Positions 3,497 to 31,304 of a DNA stretch of 32,143 nt are shown one piece after another. The position numbers and the translations under genes were made by a program. How positions within the stretch are numbered: position 1 is the first letter of the stretch; every line of letters starts with the position of its first letter. Below the pieces are notes generated by a model. That model did no database searches, had not been told where the DNA came from, and saw only the letters and a program-made list of their open reading frames with translations. The stretch is from Phycisphaerales bacterium (GTDB lineage Bacteria; Planctomycetota; Phycisphaerae; Phycisphaerales; UBA1924), in the NCBI GenBank assembly GCA_007693765.1, contig RECZ01000064.1:1-32143 (forward strand), read 5' to 3'.

Positions 3497-5368
3497 TCAG
3501 GGGCGGGTTTCGCGCAACGCCGCGGTGGCCCGTAGCGTCTCGTCGATCGCCAGGAGGGTCGCGACGTTGGCGTCGATCTGGAGGCGCTGGTCCCACGGGC
3601 TGGCGCGCACGCCGCCGATGGCGCGGTCGCGGTCGCGGAACATGTGCATGAGGGCGTCGTCCACGGTGAGCTGCAGCAGGAAGCGGAGCGAGCGCGAGAG
3701 GCGCGCCAGCTCCGCGCCGGTCTCGTCGGCGTCGGTGAGCCGCGGGTCGGCGAGCATGGTGGCGAGCAGCGCGACGGGGCGGGCGGCCTGCCAGTTGGGG
3801 AGCATCGAGCGCGAGGCCGTGAAGACGACGCCGCCGAGGAAGTCCGGGGCGTCGTCGCCGGCGTCGGCGACGGTGATCTGGTGGCGCCACACGAGCTCGC
3901 GCATCTCGCGGAGGGCGGTCGCGGCGGGCACGGGGGCGCCCTCGTCGAGCAGCGCCAACTCCGCCCAGCCCAGCCACGGGGACATCGCGACGAGCATGCC
4001 GGGGGGCGTCTCGCGGAAGAGCGCCCGCGTCGCGGACCGCGCCAGGGCGCGCGTCTCGTCGGGCGGGGAGAGATCGTCGGGGATGACGCCCGCGCCCACG
4101 CTCAGCGCGTAGGCCACGAGGGCGCGGGCGGCGTCGGGGATCGCGTTGTCCCAGCCGGCGTCGGGGTCGTAGGCGTCGAGCGTGCGCAGCGCGGCGGCGA
4201 GCAGCGCATCGTCGTCGCGCTCGTCGCGGTCGCGGAGTCCGGGCGGGCGGGCCCCGGCGTGGGCGGCGGCGGCGATGAACGCGCTGGCGACGACGGGGTC
4301 GCGCAGCGAGGCCTTGTCGTGGGCGGCGATGAGGTCGAGCTGCGTCCAGGCGAAGCGGGCGGCGCGCACGCCGTCGGCGCGATCGACCCACCCGCCGGAG
4401 GCGTGGCGGAACAGGGCGTACGCGGTGAGCGCGCGCTGCACGGGGGAGGCGACGAGGGGGTCGTACGAGTCGAGCCAGGGCTGGTAGTCGCCCATCATCA
4501 CGTGCACGTCGTCGCGCCGGAGTTCGCGCGACATCAGGTGTCGGACGATGGCGCGTGAGGCGTCTCGGAGCGTGCGCTCCGATACGGCCGCGTGCGAGAG
4601 CACGCGCCCGCCGCGGAAGAGAAAGACGGGCTCCTCACCCGGCTCCGTCTGGGCGAGGTGCTGCACGGGGAAGCGGTAGAGGATCACGCCGTGATCGGCG
4701 CGCAGGGTGTCGAGGCCGAGCGGGGGAAGGTCGAGGTCGGCGCACGCGGCGATGAGCCCCTGCGCAGAAGATGTGTTGGCGCTGAGCAGCGCGCCCGGGA
4801 AGTAGGCCCGCACGCGCTGCCCGACCCGCGCCGCCACGCCCTCGACGCCGTGCGAGACCTGGTTCGCCGCGTCGCTGAAGGTGGCGCCGGCGAGCGGGAT
4901 CATGGCGCCGCCGATCTGCACGTCGATGGTCATGCGTTGGGCCGTGTCGCGCAGGGCCTCGTCGCGGAGGGCGTCGCGTGCGACGGGGGCGCGCTCGGTG
5001 GCCTGCAGCATGGCGCCGCGGGCGGCGCGCCACACGGCCGTGCCGTCGGTGACGACCTCCGTGCCGCGCCCCACGATCACGCCCGAGAGCCGCAGGGTGA
5101 CGCTGGCGCTGTGGGCGCCCTCCGGGTCGACGAAACTGGGCTCGGCGGGCGCATCCCACGCCCGCACCCACGCGCTGACCTCGTGGTAGGCCTCGAGCGT
5201 CTGGGCGGCGCCGGGCATGCCCACGGTCGCGGCGGCGGCGGCGGCGTGCGGGGGGGGGCTGAGGACCAGGATGCAGGTCAGGGCCGCGCCGATCGCCAGC
5301 GCAATCGGACGTTGCCGCGCGGCCCCACGGGTGTTGCGTGGAGGCAACGCCGCGGCGCCACCCGACAC
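3497..5368 (-). CDS. Large exported protein of unknown function
   Basis: A protein of about 620 residues that I do not recognise. It begins with a signal-peptide-like segment (basic RNTRGAARQRP, then IALAIGAALTCILVLS and an Ala-rich stretch). The N-terminal third is a mixed alpha/beta domain (ASVTLRLSGVIVGRG, then VVTDGTAVWRAARGAMLQA). The remainder is helical and Ala-rich, with recurring segments such as ALTAYALF, AARALVAYALS and VASAFIAAAA that could form an alpha-alpha toroid. No catalytic motif stands out. The start is uncertain: no ATG precedes the signal peptide at a sensible distance. GTG at 5368 is used; TTG at 5347 is equally possible (616 residues). Neither has a clear Shine-Dalgarno sequence. 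The stop is 128 bases upstream of the STN-like gene on the same strand. Confidence 0.7.
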   Translation of the reverse strand: MSGGAAALPPRNTRGAARQRPIALAIGAALTCILVLSPPPHAAAAAATVGMPGAAQTLEAYHEVSAWVRAWDAPAEPSFVDPEGAHSASVTLRLSGVIVGRGTEVVTDGTAVWRAARGAMLQATERAPVARDALRDEALRDTAQRMTIDVQIGGAMIPLAGATFSDAANQVSHGVEGVAARVGQRVRAYFPGALLSANTSSAQGLIAACADLDLPPLGLDTLRADHGVILYRFPVQHLAQTEPGEEPVFLFRGGRVLSHAAVSERTLRDASRAIVRHLMSRELRRDDVHVMMGDYQPWLDSYDPLVASPVQRALTAYALFRHASGGWVDRADGVRAARFAWTQLDLIAAHDKASLRDPVVASAFIAAAAHAGARPPGLRDRDERDDDALLAAALRTLDAYDPDAGWDNAIPDAARALVAYALSVGAGVIPDDLSPPDETRALARSATRALFRETPPGMLVAMSPWLGWAELALLDEGAPVPAATALREMRELVWRHQITVADAGDDAPDFLGGVVFTASRSMLPNWQAARPVALLATMLADPRLTDADETGAELARLSRSLRFLLQLTVDDALMHMFRDRDRAIGGVRASPWDQRLQIDANVATLLAIDETLRATAALRETRP

Positions 5369-21582: not shown

Positions 21583-22961
21583 CGCGCAGCGCTCTGCTCG
21601 GCGGGTTCGTCGTCGTCTCCGGGCGGCTCGTCGTCGGCGCGGGCGGTCTCGACGGCGTCGCCGTCGGCGTCCTTCTGCGCGGGGGTCGCGGCGTCGCCGT
21701 CGCGGACGCGCACGCCGTTGGACATCGAGAGCAGCGCCTTGTACGGCCCCACGATCACGCGCTCGCCCGCCTCGACGCCCGCGAGCAGCGCCGTGGTGCG
21801 CAGGTCGCTGGGGCCGACGGAGACCGGTCGGGCCTTGGCCTCGCCGTTCTCGATGAGGTAGACGACGCGGGCGAAGGTGCGGTCGCGGAGCACGTTGGGG
21901 TTGTCGCGCAACTCGTCGGGCAGTTCGTCGACGCGCACGTCGAGCACCGCCTGGCTGGGCACGAGCATGACGTCGCGGAGCGTCTCGATCTCGATGTCCA
22001 CGCTCGCGGTGAGCCCCGAGTAGATCGAGCGGCCGCGGAGGTCCAACACCACCTCGACCTCGAAGACGTCGTTGGAGGCGCCCACGCTGATGCCCGACCG
22101 CCCGCCGGCGCGCCGGCGTTCGAGGGCGATCTTGCGGACCACGCCCTCGAACTCCTCGTCCGGGTAGGCGTTGAGGTAGACGCGGGCCCGCTGGCCGACG
22201 CGCACGTGGGCGATGTCCGTCTCGTCGACCTCGACGCGCACGATCATCTCGGAGAGGTCGGCGATCTCCATGATCACGGTGCCCGGGTTGTTCATGGTGC
22301 CGGTCATCACGATCTCGCCCACCTCGGCGTTGAGGCGGGTGAGGGTGCCGTTGATGGGCGAGGCGATCTGGGTGTAGCGCAGGTCCTCGCGCACCCGTGA
22401 GATCGAGGCCCGGGCCATCTCGATGCTCGCCTCCGCGGCGCGCATGTTGGCTTCGGCGCGACGTCGCTCCGCCTCCGCCTGATCCAAGGCGGACTTGGGC
22501 ACGTCGTTGCTCTCGTACAGGGCGGACTGGCGCTCCCACTCGGAGACGGCGTTGATGTACGTGGCCCGGGCGCCCTCCAGGCGGGCCTCCTCGGCCCGCA
22601 GGGAGGCCTCCACCGAGGCGAGTTGGGCCTGCAGGTCGCGGTCGTCGAGCTTCAGGATCATGTCCCCCCGGCGGATCGTGTCGCCCTCCTCGAAGGGCAG
22701 GTCCTCGATCTGGGCCGAGATCCGGGCCGAGATCGACACCCGCCGGGCGGCCTCCACCAGCCCGGGGGCGCTGACGGTCCGCACCAGGTCGCCGACCTCG
22801 ACGGGCTCGAGACGCACGAGCTGGCCCACGCCCCCGCCGCGGGAGGCCTCCATCTGCTTCTTGACCATGGGCCAGAGCACGGCCGCCGCCCCGCCGCCGA
22901 TCACGGCCAGCAGGATCACAGCGCCCACGACCCATTTCACGATGCCCATTGCTCCGCGCAC
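21579..22961 (-). CDS. HlyD/MacA-type periplasmic adaptor (membrane fusion protein)
   Basis: A 460-residue adaptor that links the inner-membrane permeases to the TolC-like channel. It has an N-terminal membrane helix ([20 protein letters not shown]), a first half-motif of the lipoyl domain ([20 protein letters not shown]), a long coiled coil (about residues 120-205, [18 protein letters not shown] and [19 protein letters not shown]), the second lipoyl half ([20 protein letters not shown]) and beta-barrel/membrane-proximal domains. The tail is acidic and disordered. The GTG at 22961 has AGGTGG seven to eight bases upstream; an ATG at 22949 is possible but lacks a properly spaced site. This is the first gene of the efflux operon. 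Confidence 0.92.
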
Positions 22962-23168
22962 TGGCGTTCCACCTTGCTGGTACGTGTGATCGAACCCTCG
23001 CGACTCGTGCCCTCGCCGGGCGTGCCGGCCCGAGACTCTCCGCAACACCAAGCATACACCGGTCATTCCGCGGCCGGTTGCATCCTCATCGGGCGCACGG
23101 CGGTGCGCCGACGTACCATCTTGGGATGTTCGCACGGGCCCTTTCACCCCCCGTGCGGCATGTCCCCG

Positions 23169-23242
23169 CAGGGTGTAGCTCAGCTTGGTAGAGCGCCGCG
23201 TTTGGGTCGCGGAGGCCGCTGGTTCGAATCCAGTCACCCTGA
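23169..23242 (+). tRNA. tRNA-Pro (anticodon UGG)
   Basis: A 74-base cloverleaf: acceptor arms CAGGGTG and CACCCTG, D-arm GCTC/GAGC, anticodon stem CCGCG/CGCGG around TTTGGGT (anticodon TGG), and T-arm with the TTCGAAT loop. The C1-G72 pair is typical of bacterial tRNA-Pro. The CCA end is not encoded. It sits alone between the divergent efflux operon and purD. No integrated element is visible beside it. Confidence 0.96.
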
Positions 23243-23303
23243 TTCCCCACCCCTTTCCGCCACGGACTCGCTCCATGCGCGAGGATCGGTATCATCCGCC
23301 CCA

Positions 23304-24602
23304 ATGCGCCAACCCCCAGACGACATGCGTGTGCTTCTCGTCGGCGGCGGCGGGCGTGAGCACGCGCTGGCGTGGCGTCTGGACCAGTCCCCGCGCGTAC
23401 GCCGAATCTTCACGACCCACCCCGAGAACCCGGGGATCGCCTCGCTGGCGGATCCCGTGGGTTTCCCGTTCAACGTCAAAGAGGCCTACCGCCTGCGCCA
23501 GTTCTGCGATCGCGAGAAGGTGAACCTCGTGGTCATCGGACCCGAGGCGCCGCTGGCGGCGGGGCTGGCCGATGCGCTCGAGGCGTCCGGACGGGCAGTG
23601 GTCGGACCCGGCGCCAAGGGGGCGCAGATCGAGGCCAGCAAGGCGTGGTCGAAGGCGTTCATGCGGGCCGCGTCGATCCCGACCGCGGACGGTCGGGCCT
23701 TCGACAACGCCCACGACGCCAAGCGCTGGATCGAGTCGCGCGAGCACGCCCCGGTCGTGAAGGCCTCCGGGCTGGCGGCGGGCAAGGGCGTGATCGTGCC
23801 CAAGACGATCGAGGAGGCGCTGGACGCCGTCGACCGCATCATGAGCAAGCGCGAGTTCGCCGACGCCGGCGCCGAGATCGTGGTGGAGGAGTGTCTGGAC
23901 GGGCGTGAGGCGTCGGTCTTCGCGCTCGTCGACGGGCGCACGATCCTGATGCTCGACGCATGCCAGGACCACAAGCGGTTGCTCGACTACGACGAGGGGC
24001 CGAACACGGGCGGCATGGGGGCGTACTCCCCGGCCCGCGTGCTCGACGACGAGATGATGACCCGCGTGGAGCGGGAGATCATCCTCCCCACCGTCGACGC
24101 CCTCCGCCGCGACGGCATCGATTACCGCGGCGTGCTCTACGTGGGGATCATGCTCACGCACGCCGGGCCCAAGGTGCTCGAGTACAACGCCCGCTTCGGC
24201 GACCCCGAATGCCAGACCCTCATGCCCCGGCTCATCGGCGACCTCGCCGACCTGCTCTGGCGCACCGCCAGCGGCTCGCTCGAGGACGCCGAGATCGACT
24301 GGGACCGGCGTTCGTCCTGCTGCGTGGTCATCGCCAGCGAGGGCTACCCCGAGAAGCCGGTCACCGGGCGTCCAATCTCCGGAATCGAGGACGCGCTGGC
24401 GATGGACGACGTGCACGTCTTCCACGCCGGCACGGCGATGGACAAGCAGGGGGCGCTGGTCAGCGTCGGCGGGCGCGTGCTGAGCGTTGTCGCCCTCGCG
24501 GACGACCTCGCCGGGGCGAGAGAGAAGGCGAACGCCGCGTGCGCGTGCATCACGCTCGAGGGCGCCCAGCATCGAAGCGACATCGGGGCGAAGGCGATCT
24601 GA
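23304..24602 (+). CDS. purD: Phosphoribosylamine-glycine ligase
   Basis: A 432-residue enzyme of purine synthesis that joins phosphoribosylamine and glycine using ATP. It shows the N-terminal MRVLLVGGGGREHALAW, the ATP-grasp loop VVKASGLAAGKGVIVPKT, GGMGAYSPA, and VLEYNARFGDPECQTLMPRL with the metal-binding Glu/Asn, followed by the C-terminal SVGGRVLSVVALADDL domain. The conserved start of the family is the ATG at 23325 (425 residues). The ATG at 23304 adds seven residues and follows a TATCAT sequence by eight bases. Neither has a Shine-Dalgarno site. It lies 61 bases after tRNA-Pro and may share its transcript. Confidence 0.95.
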   Translation: MRQPPDDMRVLLVGGGGREHALAWRLDQSPRVRRIFTTHPENPGIASLADPVGFPFNVKEAYRLRQFCDREKVNLVVIGPEAPLAAGLADALEASGRAVVGPGAKGAQIEASKAWSKAFMRAASIPTADGRAFDNAHDAKRWIESREHAPVVKASGLAAGKGVIVPKTIEEALDAVDRIMSKREFADAGAEIVVEECLDGREASVFALVDGRTILMLDACQDHKRLLDYDEGPNTGGMGAYSPARVLDDEMMTRVEREIILPTVDALRRDGIDYRGVLYVGIMLTHAGPKVLEYNARFGDPECQTLMPRLIGDLADLLWRTASGSLEDAEIDWDRRSSCCVVIASEGYPEKPVTGRPISGIEDALAMDDVHVFHAGTAMDKQGALVSVGGRVLSVVALADDLAGAREKANAACACITLEGAQHRSDIGAKAI

Positions 24603-24657
24603 CCCGCCGCGCCGTCGGGGGTCGAGCGGGGGCCGCATCACCGAATCACGGGCGTAG

Positions 24658-24689
24658 AAAAAACGCCGAGCGCGTGAAGCGCTCGGCGT
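24658..24689 (-). terminator. Rho-independent terminator of the second PEP-CTERM-like unit
   Basis: A perfect 11-bp stem (24663-24673 with 24679-24689) and a 5-base loop, followed on the minus strand by six T. It lies about 50 bases past the stop of the last gene of the unit; purD converges from the other side. A smaller CGCCCC/GGGGCG hairpin lies between it and that stop. Confidence 0.9.
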
Positions 24690-24738
24690 CATGGGGGGAT
24701 ATGCCCGCCCCGTGAGGGGCGGCACTCGCTTTGGTTGG

Positions 24739-25425
24739 TTAGCGGCGGCGGCGGATCGAGATCAGCCCGGTCATCGCGAACAGGGCGATGGCGCCGGGTG
24801 TCGGGATGATCGTGCCGGAGAACGAGGCGCGGGCATCGAACGCGTCGATGCCGACGACGACGCCGTTCTCGAGCAGGAGCACGGCGCCGTCACCCTGGTT
24901 GAGATCGGTGAGGGTGAAGCCGAAGTCGCCGGGGGAGAACTGCCCGAAGCCGGTGATCCCGGAGATGATCGAGCCGAGCTCGTACTCGATCTCGAAGCCC
25001 GAGATGAAGCCGGACTGGATGATGGTGCTGGTGCCGAGGGCGACCATGGCGGCCACGCTGTCGGTGATGACGCCGCGGAGGAGGAAGTCGTTGGTGTCGG
25101 CGTCGAAGAACTCAAAGATGCCGTTGAGCGAGAAGTAGTGGGCGAACACGCCGGGGCCTGTCTCCACGGTGGACTGATAGACGAGGTCGAAATCCACGGT
25201 CAGGTTGGCGTTGAAGGCCGAGACCGGCCCGCCGTCCTGCGGGTCGACGAGCAGCATCGTGAACGTGGGGCCCATGTCGGTGACGTTGGTCACGGTGTTG
25301 ACGGCGTCAAACTGACTGAGAAGGCTGGGCTGGGTGGGGTCTACATCGGCGGCGAACGAGATCGTTGCGGCGTTTGCCGTCCCGATCGCGAGCAGGGCGC
25401 CGAGCATGGTGAGGCGGGTAATCAT
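24739..25425 (-). CDS. PEP-CTERM-like exported protein, subfamily A (copy 1)
   Basis: A 228-residue exported protein. It has a signal peptide (MITRLTMLGALLAIGTANA), a beta-rich body starting ATISFAADVDPTQPSLLSQFD, and a C-terminal sorting tail: Ile-Pro-Thr-Pro-Gly, a hydrophobic helix (IALFAMTGLISI) and four Arg. Such tails are recognised by exosortase-type machinery in other bacteria; no exosortase is in the window. It contains PGDFGFTLTDLNQGDGAVLLLENGVVVGI-type segments shared with all three neighbours. It is closest to the copy at 26790-27476. The ATG at 25425 has GGAGA about ten bases upstream. It is the second gene of a B-A pair and is followed by a strong terminator. The function of the body is unknown. 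Confidence 0.85.
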   Translation of the reverse strand: MITRLTMLGALLAIGTANAATISFAADVDPTQPSLLSQFDAVNTVTNVTDMGPTFTMLLVDPQDGGPVSAFNANLTVDFDLVYQSTVETGPGVFAHYFSLNGIFEFFDADTNDFLLRGVITDSVAAMVALGTSTIIQSGFISGFEIEYELGSIISGITGFGQFSPGDFGFTLTDLNQGDGAVLLLENGVVVGIDAFDARASFSGTIIPTPGAIALFAMTGLISIRRRR

Positions 25426-25554
25426 TTGGATCTTTCTCCGAGTTTCATGGACGCGACGTCGGGTCGCGCCGGTGTTTGTTTGTTTTTGATCGAACACGGG
25501 TATGCATGACCTGCACACTGTCGGGGCGTGTTTGGGCCTACAGGCCCGCCGTTC

Positions 25555-26259
25555 TCACACGTTGCGACGGCGACGGATCGCCATCACACCGCTCATCATC
25601 GCCAGAGCGAGGGCTCCGGGGGTCGGGATGAAGCTTCCCGAGAAGGACGAGTGCGCGAAGAAGTCTTCGATGCCGACAACGGAGCCGTTCTCGAAGATGA
25701 GCGTCGCGCCGGCGCCGTTGTTGATGTCGGTGAGGGTGAACCCGAAGTCGCCGGGCAACTGCGTGCCGCCGAAGCCGACGATGGCCTCGCCCGCGGGGCC
25801 GATGTCGTAGGTGGTGTTGAAGTCGCCGATGCCGCCGGAATTGATCTTCGTCGCGGTGCCGAGGCCGACGAACACGCCGCCGCTCTCGCCGGCCGTCCCG
25901 CGGTAGAGCAGATCGTCGGTGACCTGGTCGCGGAACTCGAACGAGCCCGAGACGCTGAAGGTGTGCGCCCACAGGCCGGGCATGATCTGGTTGCTGGTGA
26001 TGTGCGTCATCGAGAAGGTGAGCAGCAGCGCCACCGGCGACGTGACCGGCGAAGCGGACCCGTCGTCCGGGTGGGTGAGCAGGTTCAGCATCGTGGGCCC
26101 ACGGTCGAGGATGCTGGTGATCTTCGACCCGGCGTCGAACTGGCTCACAAGCGTGGGGTCGTTGGGGTTGCTGCCCGCGGCGAACGAAATGAGCGCGCTC
26201 TGTGCGCCGGTCACAGCGAGACCAAGCGCCGCAGTCGCGGCAATACTCTGAATCAACAT
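25555..26259 (-). CDS. PEP-CTERM-like exported protein, subfamily B (copy 1)
   Basis: A 234-residue exported protein with a signal peptide (AATAALGLAVTGAQS), the body opening ALISFAAGSNPNDPTLVSQFDAG and a tail of Pro-Thr-Pro-Gly, hydrophobic ALALAMMSGVMAI, then four Arg and Asn-Val. It shares GGVFVGLGTATKINSG and PGDFGFTLTDINNGAGA with the copy at 27614-28321, its closest relative. The ATG at 26259 has a perfect AAGGAG seven bases upstream. It is the first gene of its unit, with a strong promoter about 125 bases upstream and a conserved hairpin in the leader. A hairpin (GGGCC/GGCCC) follows the stop without a T-run. Function unknown. Confidence 0.85.
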   Translation of the reverse strand: MLIQSIAATAALGLAVTGAQSALISFAAGSNPNDPTLVSQFDAGSKITSILDRGPTMLNLLTHPDDGSASPVTSPVALLLTFSMTHITSNQIMPGLWAHTFSVSGSFEFRDQVTDDLLYRGTAGESGGVFVGLGTATKINSGGIGDFNTTYDIGPAGEAIVGFGGTQLPGDFGFTLTDINNGAGATLIFENGSVVGIEDFFAHSSFSGSFIPTPGALALAMMSGVMAIRRRRNV

Positions 26260-26282
26260 CTTGTAGCTCCTTTTTTCCTGCA

Positions 26283-26307
26283 GGCGACGGGCGTGCAACC
26301 TATCGCC
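26283..26307 (-). promoter_or_regulatory. Leader hairpin with TGCAC loop (copy 1)
   Basis: On the minus strand, GGCGATAGG pairs with CCCGTCGCC (nine positions, one mismatch and one G-U) around the loop TTGCACG, about 25 bases before the Shine-Dalgarno site. The same loop core and position recur before the copy-2 B gene. It may control translation or mRNA stability. Confidence 0.5.
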
Positions 26308-26381
26308 GAGGCTCTCTCTACGGTTAGTGTTTCCGTCCTCTTTCCGACTCCGGCCGAGGGTTTGCCTCCCTCTTCACCCGC

Positions 26382-26410
26382 ATTATCAGAACCGCGTTCA
26401 ACCAAGTCAA
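26382..26410 (-). promoter_or_regulatory. Promoter of copy-1 PEP-CTERM-like unit
   Basis: On the minus strand, TTGACT (26405-26410) and GATAAT (26382-26387) are separated by exactly 17 bases, close to the sigma-70 consensus. This is the best promoter in the window. The leader to the B gene would be about 115 bases. Confidence 0.8.
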
Positions 26411-26528
26411 TACAAATCGCTTGTCGTGTGCGCGATGCGCAGTGTTCGATTCCGCACACGTACGTGTAACTACTGTGTCACGAACGCCAATGGCGATTCA
26501 AGAGCGGGCGCGTACGGCCTCTGTGCGT

Positions 26529-26548
26529 CAGGGTTTTACCCTGTTTTT
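26529..26548 (+). terminator. Plus-strand terminator-like hairpin
   Basis: CAGGGT and ACCCTG form a perfect 6-bp stem with a 3-base loop, followed by five T on the plus strand only. No plus-strand gene precedes it, so it could end a small RNA; a CGCC/GGCG hairpin lies about 40 bases upstream. Confidence 0.5.
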
Positions 26549-26712
26549 CAGGCGCAAAAGAATTTTCATGAATCGTCAGCGATCCGTTTCATTCGCGTTC
26601 CGAGACGCGCGAACGCCCGCGATGTGCGCCCTCGATGCGCGAAGCGGAAGCACGCAATGCAGAACGGATCAAGACGCATGGTGAGGCTTGGACGCGGCTC
26701 GTCACAGCGCGC

Positions 26713-26746
26713 AAAAAAAGAGCCGGGCGCGATTGCGCCCGGCTCT
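26713..26746 (-). terminator. Rho-independent terminator of the first PEP-CTERM-like unit
   Basis: A perfect 12-bp stem (26719-26730 with 26735-26746), a 4-base loop and seven T on the minus strand. It closes the copy-2 B-A pair about 45 bases past its last stop, just as the terminator at 24658 closes the other pair. Confidence 0.9.
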
Positions 26747-26789
26747 GTGATGGTCAACTCAATGTGCTCCCCCGCGTCGTGAGGCGGGT

Positions 26790-27476
26790 TCAGCGGCGGC
26801 GACGAGCAGCCAGCAGGCCGATGAAGGCCATCGCACCGGCCGCGCCGGGGGCAGGGATGAAGCTGCCGGAGAACGAGGCGCGGGCCTCGAAGGGCTCGAT
26901 GCCGATGATCTCGCCGTCCTGGTTGAGGATGAGGTCGGCGCCGAGGCCGTGGTTGAGGGCGGTGATGGTGAAGCCGAAGTCGCCGGGGAACATGCCCTCG
27001 AAGCCGACCACGCCGCCGACGATGGAGCCGATGTTGTACTGGATGTCGAAGCCGGTGATCAGGCCGGACATCACCGTCGTCGCGGTGCCGATCGCGGCGA
27101 GGACCGCCTCGGCCTCGTTGACGGATCCGGACAGCAGGAACTCGTCCGTGGTCGCGTCGCGGAACTCGAATGATCCGGTCAGCGAGAACAGGTGCGAGAA
27201 CACGCCGCCCACGGGCGTCGAGAACTGGTAGGCGAGGTCGAAGTTCACGCTGAGGTGTGCGTTGATCGCCGTGGCGGGGGAGCCGTCCTCGGCGTCGATG
27301 AGCAGAACCGTGAACGTGGGGCCCATGTCGACGACACGGGTGGTGTTTGTGTTCGTGTCGAAGAAGCTCAGCAGGGTGGGCTCCGTCGGATCGTTGTCGG
27401 CGGCGAATGAGATCGTCGCGGCGTGCGCCGTTCCGATCGTGAGCATGGCGCCGATTGCAGCAATGCGGGTCATCAT
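26790..27476 (-). CDS. PEP-CTERM-like exported protein, subfamily A (copy 2)
   Basis: A 228-residue protein of the same length as copy-1 A. It has a signal peptide (AAIGAMLTIGTAHA), the body start ATISFAADNDPTEPTLLSFFD, VDMGPTFTVLLIDAEDG and MFPGDFGFTITALNHG, and a tail of Pro-Ala-Pro-Gly, a hydrophobic helix (AMAFIGLLAA) and four Arg. The ATG at 27476 (or 27473) has GGAG about 11 bases upstream, in a CGGAGAGAGA context like that before copy-1 A (CGGAGAAAGA). It is the second gene of its unit, 137 bases after the B gene. The function is unknown; these are likely surface or secreted proteins anchored or released by exosortase. Confidence 0.85.
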   Translation of the reverse strand: MMTRIAAIGAMLTIGTAHAATISFAADNDPTEPTLLSFFDTNTNTTRVVDMGPTFTVLLIDAEDGSPATAINAHLSVNFDLAYQFSTPVGGVFSHLFSLTGSFEFRDATTDEFLLSGSVNEAEAVLAAIGTATTVMSGLITGFDIQYNIGSIVGGVVGFEGMFPGDFGFTITALNHGLGADLILNQDGEIIGIEPFEARASFSGSFIPAPGAAGAMAFIGLLAARRRR

Positions 27477-27613
27477 GGTTGTCTCTCTCCGGCTCTCGTA
27501 TTTACGGCGCCGCGGGGCGCTCGTGCGGGGGGGTCTGGTGTGGTTGATCATGGTGGGCACATCCGTGTGTCCGGCGTTCCGTCAAGGAGCGCCATCGTGG
27601 TTGAGCGGGTGCT

Positions 27614-28321
27614 TCAACGGTCGCGGCGGCGGCGCAACGCGACGAGCCCGGCGATCGATGCCAGTGCGGTGAAGCCCGGCGTGGGGATGAAGCTCCCGGA
27701 GAACGAGGACTCGGCGATGAAGTCCTGGATGCCGACGACGTCGCCGTTCTCGAAGGCCAGCATGGCGCCGGAGCCGTTGTTGATCGACGTCAGCGTGAAG
27801 CCGAAGTCGCCGAGCAGGTTGGTCCCGCCGAAGCCGACAATCGCAGCGCCGAGAGCGCCGATGTCATAGGTGGCGTCGAAGGCCGAGATCGAGCCCGACA
27901 TGATCTTGGTCGCGGAGCCGAGGCCCACGAACACGCCCCCGCCCTCGCCGGTGGCGCCGCGGTAGAGCAGCTCATCGGTGTTGACGTCGCGGAACTCGAA
28001 GTCGCCCACAACGCTGAACGTGTGCGACCAGAACCCGGGGAAGATCTGCCTGCTGTCGACGTGCTCCATCGTAAAGCCGAGCGACATCGCGACGCTCGTG
28101 AAGACGGGCCCGAGCGGGCCGTCCTCATCGGGGTCGGTGAGCAACTCGAGCATGGTGGGGCCGCGATCGAAGATGCTGGTGATCTTCGAACCGGCGTCGA
28201 ACTGGCTGAGGAGCGTGGGCTCGTTCGGGTTCGAATCCGCGGCGAACGAGATCAGCGCACCCTGTGCGCCGGCCGTCATGAGGCCGGTCGCCGCGAGCGC
28301 GGCGAGACTCTGAAGATACAT
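27614..28321 (-). CDS. PEP-CTERM-like exported protein, subfamily B (copy 2)
   Basis: A 235-residue protein paralogous to the gene at 25555-26259. It has a signal peptide (ALAATGLMTAGAQG), a body opening ALISFAADSNPNEPTLLSQFDAG, KITSIFDRGPTMLELLTDP, GGVFVGLGSATKIMSG and GDFGFTLTSINNGSGA, and a tail of Pro-Thr-Pro-Gly, a hydrophobic helix (ALASIAGLVAL), four Arg, then Asp-Arg. The ATG at 28321 has AAGGGAG seven bases upstream. It is the first gene of its unit, behind its own promoter and a leader hairpin. A small hairpin (GGCG-TCC with GGA-CGCC) follows the stop, without a T-run, so read-through into the A gene is expected. Confidence 0.85.
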   Translation of the reverse strand: MYLQSLAALAATGLMTAGAQGALISFAADSNPNEPTLLSQFDAGSKITSIFDRGPTMLELLTDPDEDGPLGPVFTSVAMSLGFTMEHVDSRQIFPGFWSHTFSVVGDFEFRDVNTDELLYRGATGEGGGVFVGLGSATKIMSGSISAFDATYDIGALGAAIVGFGGTNLLGDFGFTLTSINNGSGAMLAFENGDVVGIQDFIAESSFSGSFIPTPGFTALASIAGLVALRRRRDR

Positions 28322-28340
28322 GTGGTGACTCCCTTGATGG

Positions 28341-28368
28341 TCCGACGACGGGTGTGCAGCCCGACGGA
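28341..28368 (-). promoter_or_regulatory. Leader hairpin with TGCAC loop (copy 2)
   Basis: On the minus strand, TCCGTCGGG and CCCGTCGTCGGA form an interrupted stem around the loop CTGCACA, about 12 bases before the Shine-Dalgarno site. GAGAGAG precedes it, as in copy 1. The loop core TGCAC is identical, while parts of the stem differ. Confidence 0.5.
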
Positions 28369-28433
28369 GGACTCTCTCCTGGTTTTTGAATAGCTCTGAC
28401 TAAGACGGGGATGTGCGGTCCTCGTCGCCCTTC

Positions 28434-28461
28434 AGTGTATTGATTGGGCGACGCCAAGCAA
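28434..28461 (-). promoter_or_regulatory. Promoter of copy-2 PEP-CTERM-like unit
   Basis: On the minus strand, TTGCTT (28456-28461) and TACACT (28434-28439) are 16 bases apart. The predicted leader of about 105 bases is similar in length to that of copy 1. Confidence 0.6.
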
Positions 28462-28556
28462 GGGGAAACCCCCATGTAATCACGAAAAATTGACAAGCAC
28501 ACCCCCCCAACCGCTCTAATGGGTCCGAAAAGCGGGGGGAGCAGTCTTCGCGGAGC

Positions 28557-28586
28557 AAAAAAAATCGGCGCTTTCTCTCGGCGACC
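28557..28586 (-). terminator. Probable rho-independent terminator of pcrA
   Basis: On the minus strand, GGTCGC and GCGCC pair with one bulged T around an AGAGAAA-type loop, followed by GA and eight T. The stem is short, but the T-run is long and the position, about 90 bases after the pcrA stop, fits. Confidence 0.55.
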
Positions 28587-28678
28587 TTGCTGCCACCACT
28601 GGATTTGGTGCGTGTTCGGTCTGGCGGCGCTGGTTGTGAGCGCTTGATGCTCAGCCAGAGTGCCCGCCCAGAGCCCGA

Positions 28679-31120
28679 TCAGAGGCGTTCGAGCCGGGCA
28701 TATCGCAGCACCAGCGTCTTCACCCCGGCGTCCCGGAACGCGATCCGGGCCCTGGCGTCGGCGTTGGGCCCGCTCAGGGCCACGATGGTCCCCGTTCCGA
28801 ACTGCGGATGCCGCACAACCGTGCCCACTTCCACGCGTTCGACGCCCCCCGAGCCGCCCGCGCGCTGGGCGCCGCCCTCGAACTCGTCCTTAAAAGGCGC
28901 GCCCGGCCCGCCCCGCCGCGCTCTCGCGCCCCAGCCGGGGGCGTCGTCGTACGAGGCGCCCCAATCGTCGGACTGGTCGCTGCGGACGACGTGCTCGCGC
29001 CCGATCTCGTCGAGGAACTGGCTGGGGACCATGCGCTCCTCGACGCCGCGGATCATGCGCCGCTTGGCGCTGGTCATGAGCACCCGCTCCTGCGCGCGGG
29101 TGATGCCCACGAAGCAGAGGCGGCGCTCTTCTTCCAGTTCCGCCTCGGACTCGCGCGAGCGTGAGTGGGGGAGCGTCCCGTCTTCGAGGCCGATCATGGC
29201 GACGACGGGGAACTCGAGGCCCTTGGCCGCGTGCAGCGTCATGAGCGTGACGGCGCCCTGCGCCGGGTCGACCTTGTCGGCGTCGGCGACCAGCGAGACG
29301 GATTCGAGGTACGCGCGCAGCATTGTGAGCAGCGGGGGGGTGTCGGCGTCGGGCGCGTTCTCGCGCGGCGCATCGAGCGAGGGGTCGTTCTCGGGCGCGT
29401 ACTCGCGCTCGAACTGCAGCGCCGAAGACACCAGCTCGCCGAGGTTGGCCAGCCGCTCTTCCTCGCGCTCGTCGGCGGCGTTCTTCTTGGCGCCGTGCCG
29501 GGCTTCGAGGCCCGACTCCTTGATCACCCGCTCCACCAACTCGGCGAGCGAGCCGCTGACGTCCGAGCCCATGAACGAGCCGGCGCCCGTCCAGCGGTCG
29601 ATCATCGCCGCGAACTCGCGCATCGCGCTCCCGGCCCGCGCCGAGACGCCCTCCACGCTCCCCGCCTGCCGCAGCGCCTGCATGAGCGGCGCGCCCAGCG
29701 CGCCCGCGCGCTGCTGCACCTGCCCGAGCGACGCGGCGCCGATGCCCCGCGTCGGCTTGTTCACGATGCGCAGCAGCGAGACGTCGTCATTGGGGTTGGC
29801 GATCACGCGCAGGTAGGCGAGGGCGTCCTTCACCTCTTCGCGCTCGTAGAACGCCGTGCCGCGGGCGATGACGTAGGGCACGCCGCCGGAGCGCAGGGCG
29901 TCCTCGATCACGCGGCTCAGGGCGTTGGTGCGGTAGAAGACGGCCATGTCCTTCCACGCGGCGCCGCGCTCGCGCTGCGACTTGAGCCAGTCCTCGACGA
30001 CGCCGGACTCGTGGCGCTCGTCGCGGCATAGGATCACCTCGACGCTCTCGCCGCCCTCGCGCGAGGTGTAGAGGTCCTTGTGCCGGCGCAACTGGTTGTG
30101 GCGGATGAGCGTGTCGGCGACGTGGAGGATCGGCGCAGTGGAGCGGAAGTTCTCGCCCAGCGTGATGACGGCGCACCGCGTGTGCCGGCGCTCGAACTCG
30201 AGGATGTTGGTGATGTCCGCCCCGCGCCAGCCGTAGATGGACTGGTCCGGGTCGCCCACAACGCAGATGTTGGGACCGGCCGCGCCGGCGTCGTCGCCGC
30301 CGGCGATGAGCGTCGCCAGCGTGAACTGGGCGTGGTTGGTGTCCTGGTACTCGTCGATGAGCAGGTACTGCCAGCGGTCGCGCACCTCGCGCAGCGCCTC
30401 GGGGCTGGTGCGCAGCAGGCGCACGGTGAGCATGAGCAGGTCGTCGAAGTCCACGGCGTTGGCGCGGCGCAGCGCGGTCTCGTACGCGGCGTAGATCTTC
30501 GCGTGCGTGTGCGAGGGGAAGTCGAACGCCTCGGCCTCCACGCTCGCGGCGTCCTTGAGCTCGTTCTTCGCCTTGCTCACCGCCCACAGCGCCGAGCCGG
30601 GCGGGAAGTTGGTCGTGCTCAGCCCGATGTCGACGATCACGCGCTTCATCAGGGACGCCTGATCGGCGCTGTCGTAGATGCTGTACGACGCGTCGAGCCC
30701 CGGCACGCGCAGCAGGTCGGCGTACCGGCGCAGCAGCCGGGCGCAGAGCGAGTGGAACGTCGCGACGGTCAGGCCGCGCGCCGCGCGCGTGTCCTCGCCC
30801 AGCAGCACGCCGACGCGCTCGCGCATCTCGCCCGCGGCCTTGTTGGTGAACGTGAGCGCGAGGATGCTCCACGCGGGCACGCCCATGCGCACAAGGTGCG
30901 CGATGCGCCGCGTGATGACCCGCGTCTTGCCCGATCCCGCCGCGGCGAGGATGAGCAGCGGCCCCTCCGTGTGCAGCACGGCGGCGCGCTGAGCGTCGGT
31001 GAGGTCCGCCAGGAGGGGATCGGGGTGAGGAACTCCGGGGGGACGTCCGGGGGAACTTCCGGGGGTGTGGTCCGAGGGCTGGGGAGACGGAAGGTCTTTG
31101 CTGTCCACGTCTTGGGTCAC
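28679..31120 (-). CDS. pcrA: ATP-dependent DNA helicase UvrD/PcrA
   Basis: An 813-residue superfamily 1A helicase for repair and replication-fork maintenance. Motifs in order: AAAGSGKTR (Walker A, about residue 57), LTFTNKAAGEM (Ia), LLIDEYQDTN (II, about 254), GDPDQSIYGWRGAD (III), ITLGENFRS (IV), VTLMTLHAAKGLEFPVV (V, about 627) and EEERRLCFVGITRAQERVLM (VI). The C-terminal segment VGTVVRHPQFGTGTIVALSG is the Tudor-like domain that contacts RNA polymerase in PcrA/UvrD. The GTG at 31120 is chosen because GGAGG lies ten bases upstream; the ATG at 31141 would add seven residues but has no site. A Pro-rich, disordered N-terminus of about 35 residues precedes the helicase core. It is somewhat longer than the typical 720-780 residues. 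Confidence 0.95.
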   Translation of the reverse strand: MTQDVDSKDLPSPQPSDHTPGSSPGRPPGVPHPDPLLADLTDAQRAAVLHTEGPLLILAAAGSGKTRVITRRIAHLVRMGVPAWSILALTFTNKAAGEMRERVGVLLGEDTRAARGLTVATFHSLCARLLRRYADLLRVPGLDASYSIYDSADQASLMKRVIVDIGLSTTNFPPGSALWAVSKAKNELKDAASVEAEAFDFPSHTHAKIYAAYETALRRANAVDFDDLLMLTVRLLRTSPEALREVRDRWQYLLIDEYQDTNHAQFTLATLIAGGDDAGAAGPNICVVGDPDQSIYGWRGADITNILEFERRHTRCAVITLGENFRSTAPILHVADTLIRHNQLRRHKDLYTSREGGESVEVILCRDERHESGVVEDWLKSQRERGAAWKDMAVFYRTNALSRVIEDALRSGGVPYVIARGTAFYEREEVKDALAYLRVIANPNDDVSLLRIVNKPTRGIGAASLGQVQQRAGALGAPLMQALRQAGSVEGVSARAGSAMREFAAMIDRWTGAGSFMGSDVSGSLAELVERVIKESGLEARHGAKKNAADEREEERLANLGELVSSALQFEREYAPENDPSLDAPRENAPDADTPPLLTMLRAYLESVSLVADADKVDPAQGAVTLMTLHAAKGLEFPVVAMIGLEDGTLPHSRSRESEAELEEERRLCFVGITRAQERVLMTSAKRRMIRGVEERMVPSQFLDEIGREHVVRSDQSDDWGASYDDAPGWGARARRGGPGAPFKDEFEGGAQRAGGSGGVERVEVGTVVRHPQFGTGTIVALSGPNADARARIAFRDAGVKTLVLRYARLERL

Positions 31121-31226
31121 TGCTGGTTCGCCTCCGTGCATCCGGGCAAGGGTAGCAGCGGGTCGGGGCCTCTTGTGGGCAGTCCACGGCAAGCGACAGC
31201 CGCCGACACCCACCGACAGATTTCGA

Positions 31227-31304
31227 CACGATCTGCACCGCCGCCACCCACGATATCTAGGCCCCCGAACACCCGCGGACAGGATATCCACACGATATAT
31301 CGTG
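31227..31304. promoter_or_regulatory. Phased CACGAT motifs with palindromes
   Basis: CACGATCT (31227), CACGATATCT (31249) and CACGATATAT (31291) lie 22 and 42 bases apart, close to two and four helical turns. The last is part of a perfect 14-bp palindrome CACGATATATCGTG (31291-31304). Next to it are GGATATCC (31282-31289) and ATATCCACA, one base from a DnaA box (TTATCCACA). This looks like an operator cluster upstream of pcrA. Confidence 0.4.

Follow-up and report, generated by a model that had tools for sequence, protein, structure and literature searches.

The window analysed here is the whole of contig RECZ01000064.1 (32,143 nucleotides) from a Phycisphaerales bacterium, in which four tandem genes encoding exported-type proteins with exosortase-type tails are flanked by a PcrA/UvrD-like helicase gene and by purD. 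They probably form a tandem array of exosortase-type surface proteins specific to this lineage, made by copying a two-gene unit, B followed by A. The contig (C18 in our numbering) belongs to a draft genome of 2.9 Mb that is 96% complete. The pattern formed by the four genes is beyond chance. All four open reading frames (ORFs) lie on the minus strand in the order B1-A1-B2-A2, with the starts and common direction assigned to them in a preliminary description of the sequence, and the B-A unit fits the length of about 1.75 kb given there. The genes are as follows:

27614..28321, minus strand: B1, exported-type protein of 235 residues with a PxPG/helix/Arg4 tail
26790..27476, minus strand: A1, exported-type protein of 228 residues
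25555..26259, minus strand: B2, exported-type protein of 234 residues
24739..25425, minus strand: A2, exported-type protein of 228 residues

Comparison of the proteins has confirmed the alternating order of the two types, with amino-acid identities of 70% for B1-B2 and 56% for A1-A2 against 46-49% for the four A-B pairs. Among the alignment columns that split two versus two, 25 separate A from B, two separate the first cassette from the second and two follow the third pairing. A maximum-likelihood tree built from 95 full-length homologues, the window's four included, pairs B1 with B2 (support 100/98) and A1 with A2 (100/97) and places all four in a clade of their own (97/92). The preliminary description had proposed a duplicated unit resting on an older duplication that produced A and B, and had named the pairings A1 with B1 and A2 with B2 as those that would speak against it. 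Both were rejected by AU tests (p-AU 2e-46 and 1e-4, respectively), as was A1 with B2. Sliding identity and column patterns gave no clear sign of mixing between A and B through gene conversion.

The signals between the genes are as follows:

28346..28361, minus strand: shared leader motif before B1, GGCTGCACACCCGTCG
27477..27613, minus strand: B1-A1 spacer, 137 nt, terminator-free
26719..26746, minus strand: terminator-like hairpin and T run after A1, 12 pairs
26382..26410, minus strand: sigma-70-like promoter site of B2, TTGACT-17-GATAAT, 10/12 positions
26285..26300, minus strand: shared leader motif before B2, GGTTGCACGCCCGTCG
25426..25554, minus strand: B2-A2 spacer, 129 nt, terminator-free, folding better than shuffles
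24662..24690, minus strand: 12-pair terminator-like hairpin with a T run, behind A2 and ahead of the convergent purD

Scanning positions 24000-29500 revealed nine terminator-like sites where 3.3 would be expected. The longest two, each with 12 pairs and a T run, stand directly 3' of A1 and A2 on the coding strand and confirm the near-perfect terminators of the preliminary description; no such site follows B1 or B2 on that strand. The terminator tails of A1 and A2 are alike at the level of 2 in 300 shuffles, though both hold T runs. Of 200 shuffles, five matched the promoter site of B2 in quality. As for the spacers, described earlier as 130-140 bases long with a hairpin after B, the lengths stand and so does the hairpin after B2 (folding z -2.65), whereas the B1-A1 spacer folds no better than its shuffles (z -1.21). 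The two spacers are similar in length but not in sequence, with 96 of 300 shuffles equalling their score.

The leaders of B1 and B2 resemble each other over 36 alignment columns, with a local score of 28 that was reached in 1/300 and 0/300 shuffles in two runs. This likeness suggests that the B leaders are likely homologous and share a start region. Their 16-mer core, with the pattern GGNTGCACNCCCGTCG, occurs exactly in the genome only at the two B leaders; with at most one mismatch it was detected at seven sites genome-wide, against two for the reversed control. No exact occurrence outside the window was found among 183 fetched loci, the six matching loci all overlapping the window. A role for GGNTGCACNCCCGTCG as a genome-wide regulatory motif was rejected, exact copies standing before B1 and B2 only; the motif is likely a relic of duplication, and a regulon is not supported. 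Since the B leaders looked alike, positions 24400-28700 were also searched with Rfam, where none of 15 matches at E ≤ 10 attained the gathering score, and a riboswitch or structured leader was rejected. Folds of the B leaders were no better than those of shuffles.

The site occupied by the array could be followed across genomes through its flanking genes:

28679..31291, minus strand: PcrA/UvrD-like helicase gene (Pfam UvrD-helicase), upstream neighbour of the array, with homology beginning at about residue 93
22953..24602, plus strand: purD (TIGR00877), convergent downstream neighbour, matched from residue 125, which places the true start downstream of 22953

The same flanks surround a single family member in one related genome (G012 in our numbering) and two in another (G069). 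DNA downstream of purD was also inspected in 40 further genomes, hand-picked from 145 with a purD match and mostly from the upper half of these, with some stretches ending early at contig ends. The helicase gene is convergent with purD in eight of the 40. Only 12-71 bases lie between the two matches in G020, G100 and G042, and more sequence or other genes intervene in G093, G029, G091, G108 and G151. No full-length family member lies between the flanks in any of the eight, five having been checked and three lacking room for one; the remaining 32 showed no helicase match near purD within the fetched stretch. Copy number at the site is therefore 0, 1, 2 or 4, the flanks are common to several genera, and family members have been gained or lost within the site. 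The two copies of G069 are sisters (100/100 in the 95-protein tree); a strong terminator stands behind the first, and the hairpin behind the second has a weaker T run. Their leaders, upstream of positions 5092 and 6111 of locus L083, are alike (score 56, 0/300 shuffles) and share CCGATCAGGTA, possibly a promoter or operator. Together, the sister relationship, the separate hairpins and the similar leaders point to a separate duplication in G069 with a one-gene unit, the unit in the window being of two genes. A further ORF was observed in G091 (L137, 2090-2767, plus strand), in the interval from purD to the helicase gene and encoded opposite in strand; it bears a PSPAG...RRRRA tail and resembles the family in this tail only.

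Each of the four proteins has a hydrophobic N-terminus and ends in a PxPG motif, a hydrophobic segment and RRRR, as the preliminary description had reported, with two more residues in B1 and B2. Hydropathy reaches 1.41-1.88 at the N-termini and peaks at 1.65-1.82 at the C-termini. Ala-rich, cleavage-like sites of the type AHA/ANA/AQG/AQS-A can be discerned by eye where the hydrophobic N-terminus ends, and the body begins with ISFAA in all four proteins. The tail motif is PTPG or PAPG at the place where PEP-CTERM has Pro-Glu-Pro; for this reason, and because curated models are not reached, the tails are referred to here as PEP-CTERM-like. The exosortase search suggested in the preliminary description found two in the genome, with 162.5 and 157.8 bits against a cut-off of 25.7, both also being over the cut-off of TIGR02602. 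In each of them, a Cys (EAC-GMR), an Arg (NVVR) and a His were spotted by eye at the places expected for the family. A Cys/Arg/His triad is a proposal of Haft et al. (2006, PMC1569441). Searched genome-wide, TIGR02595 gave no match at E ≤ 0.001, in a test in which the controls matched nowhere either, and PF07589 gave 20 matches at E ≤ 1, none of them over the cut-off.

Several observations weigh against a duplicated B-A unit of exosortase-type genes. The promoter that the preliminary description had assigned to each B is present for B2 only: B1 has no site above chance, its best agreeing at 7/12 positions and being equalled in 199 of 200 shuffles. The leader shuffle test is lenient, as some non-sister pairs among 21 comparisons scored low too (B1 against G069b, 0/300; A2 against G012, 3/300; B1 against G012, 5/300; B2 against G069a, 6/300), and this leniency makes the preferred reading slightly less secure. 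In a tree of 24 rows the clade of the four genes reached only 69/28, and the A1-A2 pair (91/90) had a long-branched protein of G012 close by. A1 and A2 differ at 99 of 227 residues against 70 of 234 for B1 and B2 (Fisher p 0.003), so one simultaneous duplication would fit only if rates were unequal or the B genes were homogenised later. Neither codon positions nor synonymous distances, 0.52-0.80 for all pairs, date the events. The seven proteins of the helicase-purD site group weakly (75/60); considering also the weak clade of the window's four, a common origin at the site rests mainly on gene order. Finally, the four proteins gave no match to TIGR02595 or PF07589 even at E ≤ 10, and their tails fall under the cut-offs of all curated tail models, the best matches being PGAP-CTERM (NF050189) for B1, at 16.7 bits against 25, and MYXO-CTERM (TIGR03901) for A1, at 14.2 bits against 20.

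Judging from profile searches, the relatives belong mostly to one bacterial family of Phycisphaerales type. An initial contig scan queried with B1, A1, B2 and A2 had found no relative. Among the 163 genomes of this bacterial family, 147 had matches at E ≤ 0.001 to a profile of the four proteins, for which up to 17 candidates were scored per genome; many of these matches were confined to the tail. A 37-row family profile matched 53 of the 163 at E ≤ 1e-18, a strict threshold that G069 misses despite holding two members at E 3e-30 or better with an iterated profile. At the order level, the four-row profile matched 42 of 400 genomes at E ≤ 1e-10, all of the same family except G164 and G355; at the class level 18 of 397 matched at E ≤ 1e-15, one of which (G204) lies outside the bacterial family. 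The loci read hold 95 full-length members, counting the window's four. Searched with their tails, such members match tail-type models alone in most of the cases shown, under the cut-off wherever scores are given. Other members lie close to recG, pyrF, a nuoI-like ferredoxin gene and an aminotransferase gene, or adjoin miaB (each identified from one representative). A record titled 'Leptolyngbya sp. PLA1' (QWIH01000002.1, L119) also bears the family, and its proteins (those of G113) group with those of Phycisphaerales genome G112; its title looks wrong. The open-access literature, in titles and the abstracts shown with them, yielded nothing on this family or on duplicated pairs of such genes.

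In the strongest competing explanation, the array results merely from unequal crossing-over that recurs in a surface-protein family with fast turnover, the copies having been retained for dosage or variety, for example against phages, with no need for A and B to cooperate. This is quite possible, though it falls somewhat short of probable. PEP-CTERM families have been described as undergoing frequent duplication and loss (Haft et al., 2006, PMC1569441), and arrays of two to four copies recur here with varied spacing and terminator position. At least two full-length copies occur in 22 of 60 fetched loci, which were picked for having matches, and 11 of the 31 internal gaps in these 22 arrays contain a terminator-like site. 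Sister copies inside one locus are found in G069, G162, G106, G039 and G040, which indicates repeated independent duplication, and the repeat unit of G069, at the same helicase-purD site, is one gene. Three findings speak against such a process: the A and B types stay cleanly separated (25 columns versus 2 and 2), both units preserve the B-A order and have no terminator inside, and unlike paralogues hold their order between species elsewhere. Ordered one-to-one sets of this last kind were recovered in the 95-protein tree for the G111/G114 quartet, G112/G113, G155/G156, G104/G105/G106 and G099/G020, and they indicate that unlike paralogues can remain together. The loci of the quartet (L062 in G114, L065 in G111) carry four unlike paralogues in one-to-one order, with a terminator-like site after the third gene in both.

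The duplicated B-A unit remains the preferred reading. Joint action of A and B is plausible, considering their shared unit and the preserved difference between them. A stronger proposal holds that A and B are obligate partners in a two-component layer or fibre, with the partner pair copied into a second, parallel set, and that tandem duplication and divergence repeatedly make new partner pairs in this barrel-bodied family of Phycisphaerales. This seems unlikely. Should A and B turn out to be partners, the case would illustrate how duplication can give rise to hetero-oligomeric surface structures. The conserved B-A pairs sought on the basis of the preliminary description were not seen outside the source genome, the 95-protein tree revealing no orthologue of A or B elsewhere, with no genome of the same genus among the 163 searched; what is conserved elsewhere is ordered sets of unlike paralogues. 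A further explanation, that four single genes arose successively and alternate by coincidence, would suit the uneven divergence of the two pairs (56% against 70% identity, p 0.003) and the unlike spacer sequences (96/300 shuffles). It is nonetheless distinctly improbable, requiring two separate steps that each placed an A 129-137 nt behind a B, and also that only the B genes have similar leaders and only the A genes similar terminators.

With regard to the protein bodies, the window's four proteins and six further members, ten in all, were searched after removal of their last 30 residues, and no Pfam or NCBIfam model was matched over its cut-off; three sub-threshold matches (E 0.02-0.045) were to unrelated models. 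The AF2 models of B2 (pLDDT 83.9, pTM 0.73) and A1 (pLDDT 81.1, pTM 0.74) concur in a beta-rich body followed by a C-terminal helix. Foldseek gave 825 matches at E ≤ 10 against the PDB, the best at E 0.017, and 429 against viral models, with none at E ≤ 0.001 in either. The best structural alignments with VIA include PagL (Z 8.9, root-mean-square deviation (rmsd) 3.4 Å, 127 residues aligned) and OmpW, the latter both for B2 (Z 8.2, rmsd 3.4 Å, 116 aligned) and for A1 (Z 8.2, rmsd 3.3 Å, 112 aligned); the soluble barrel PloI4 (Z 8.9, rmsd 3.6 Å, 128 aligned) ties with PagL, and values of 8-9 are barely higher than the stated background of Z 7-8. Assignment to a known fold family was rejected, a barrel-like arrangement being the most that these searches allow. 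That the bodies are small outer-membrane beta-barrels of the OmpA/PagL/OmpW kind acting in the outer membrane is very unlikely despite PagL and OmpW being among the top structural alignments, given the tie with a soluble barrel so near the background, the Foldseek result and a C-terminus modelled as a helix with Arg4 and no terminal barrel strand.

Taken together, a history can be proposed in which a single ancestral gene would have lain between the pcrA/uvrD-like helicase gene and purD. Its doubling would have produced adjacent B and A, which may be read as one co-transcribed two-gene unit of leader, B, A and terminator, and the entire unit would then have been duplicated. Export most likely depends on a putative signal peptide at the N-terminus; the C-terminal helix with Arg4 would then keep the proteins in the inner membrane, and either exosortase would cleave them at Pro-x-Pro-Gly or close to it. 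The beta-rich, predicted barrel-like body would thereby be released, or attached at the outer surface or in a matrix. The likeliest role of the four proteins is that of a surface or matrix component, and A and B, as diverged copies made together, probably both contribute to a single surface layer or matrix as its two components.

Additional tail-bearing sets were encountered among eight inspected stretches of the source genome. Two sets with different bodies consist of tandem paralogues: a pair of larger proteins on contig C52 (L176: 638-1864 and 1996-3027, plus strand) with about 58% identity, and a triplet with another body on C75 (L178: 303-1004, 1159-1968 and 2044-2928, plus strand) with 60-70% identity. 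On contig C7, two equal-scoring PEP-CTERM-like tails (26287-26355 and 27450-27518, plus strand) lie about 1.2 kb apart, maybe as a tandem pair, and one of the two exosortases is roughly 10 kb away.

The proteins share with the PEP-CTERM/exosortase (EpsH/Xrt) system, as described by Haft et al. (PMC1569441), a signal-peptide-like start, a body with no named domain and a motif-helix-basic tail; further points in common are the presence of exosortases, the many tails in a genome and lineage-specific expansion of paralogues. They differ in the motif, the window having Pro-x-Pro-Gly and not Pro-Glu-Pro. Among 36 family members, TIGR02595 is matched by three and PF07589 by five at E ≤ 0.01, and the window tails lie under the cut-offs of PGAP-CTERM (NF050189; 25 bits), VPLPA-CTERM (TIGR03370; 25.35 bits) and MYXO-CTERM (TIGR03901; 20 bits). 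XDP1 (NF041927) and the THxN family PEP-CTERM model (NF038125) are matched by nine and seven of the 36 at the same threshold; in the member whose matches were shown in full they reach no further than the final 23-26 residues, with 19.3 and 16 bits where the cut-offs are 125 and 85, and the ten tail-free members match neither. The floc-forming protein PepA has an exosortase-type tail like the window proteins, and is described (PMC9850573) as having a role in aggregation and as being RpoN-dependent. By analogy, an aggregation-type role would be a likely kind for the window proteins; the floc_PepA model is matched by two of 36 members at E ≤ 0.01 and by none of the ten without tails. Members of the present family sit among housekeeping genes (pcrA/purD, recG/pyrF, miaB), where they have been repeatedly amplified in place, and one site in 0-, 1-, 2- and 4-copy versions permits a stepwise reading of the birth of surface genes. 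Paralogue expansion of exosortase-type proteins is already known (PMC1569441); the present case adds a body family unmatched in the libraries searched, a site at which steps in copy number can be read, and one example of a two-gene unit that was probably copied.

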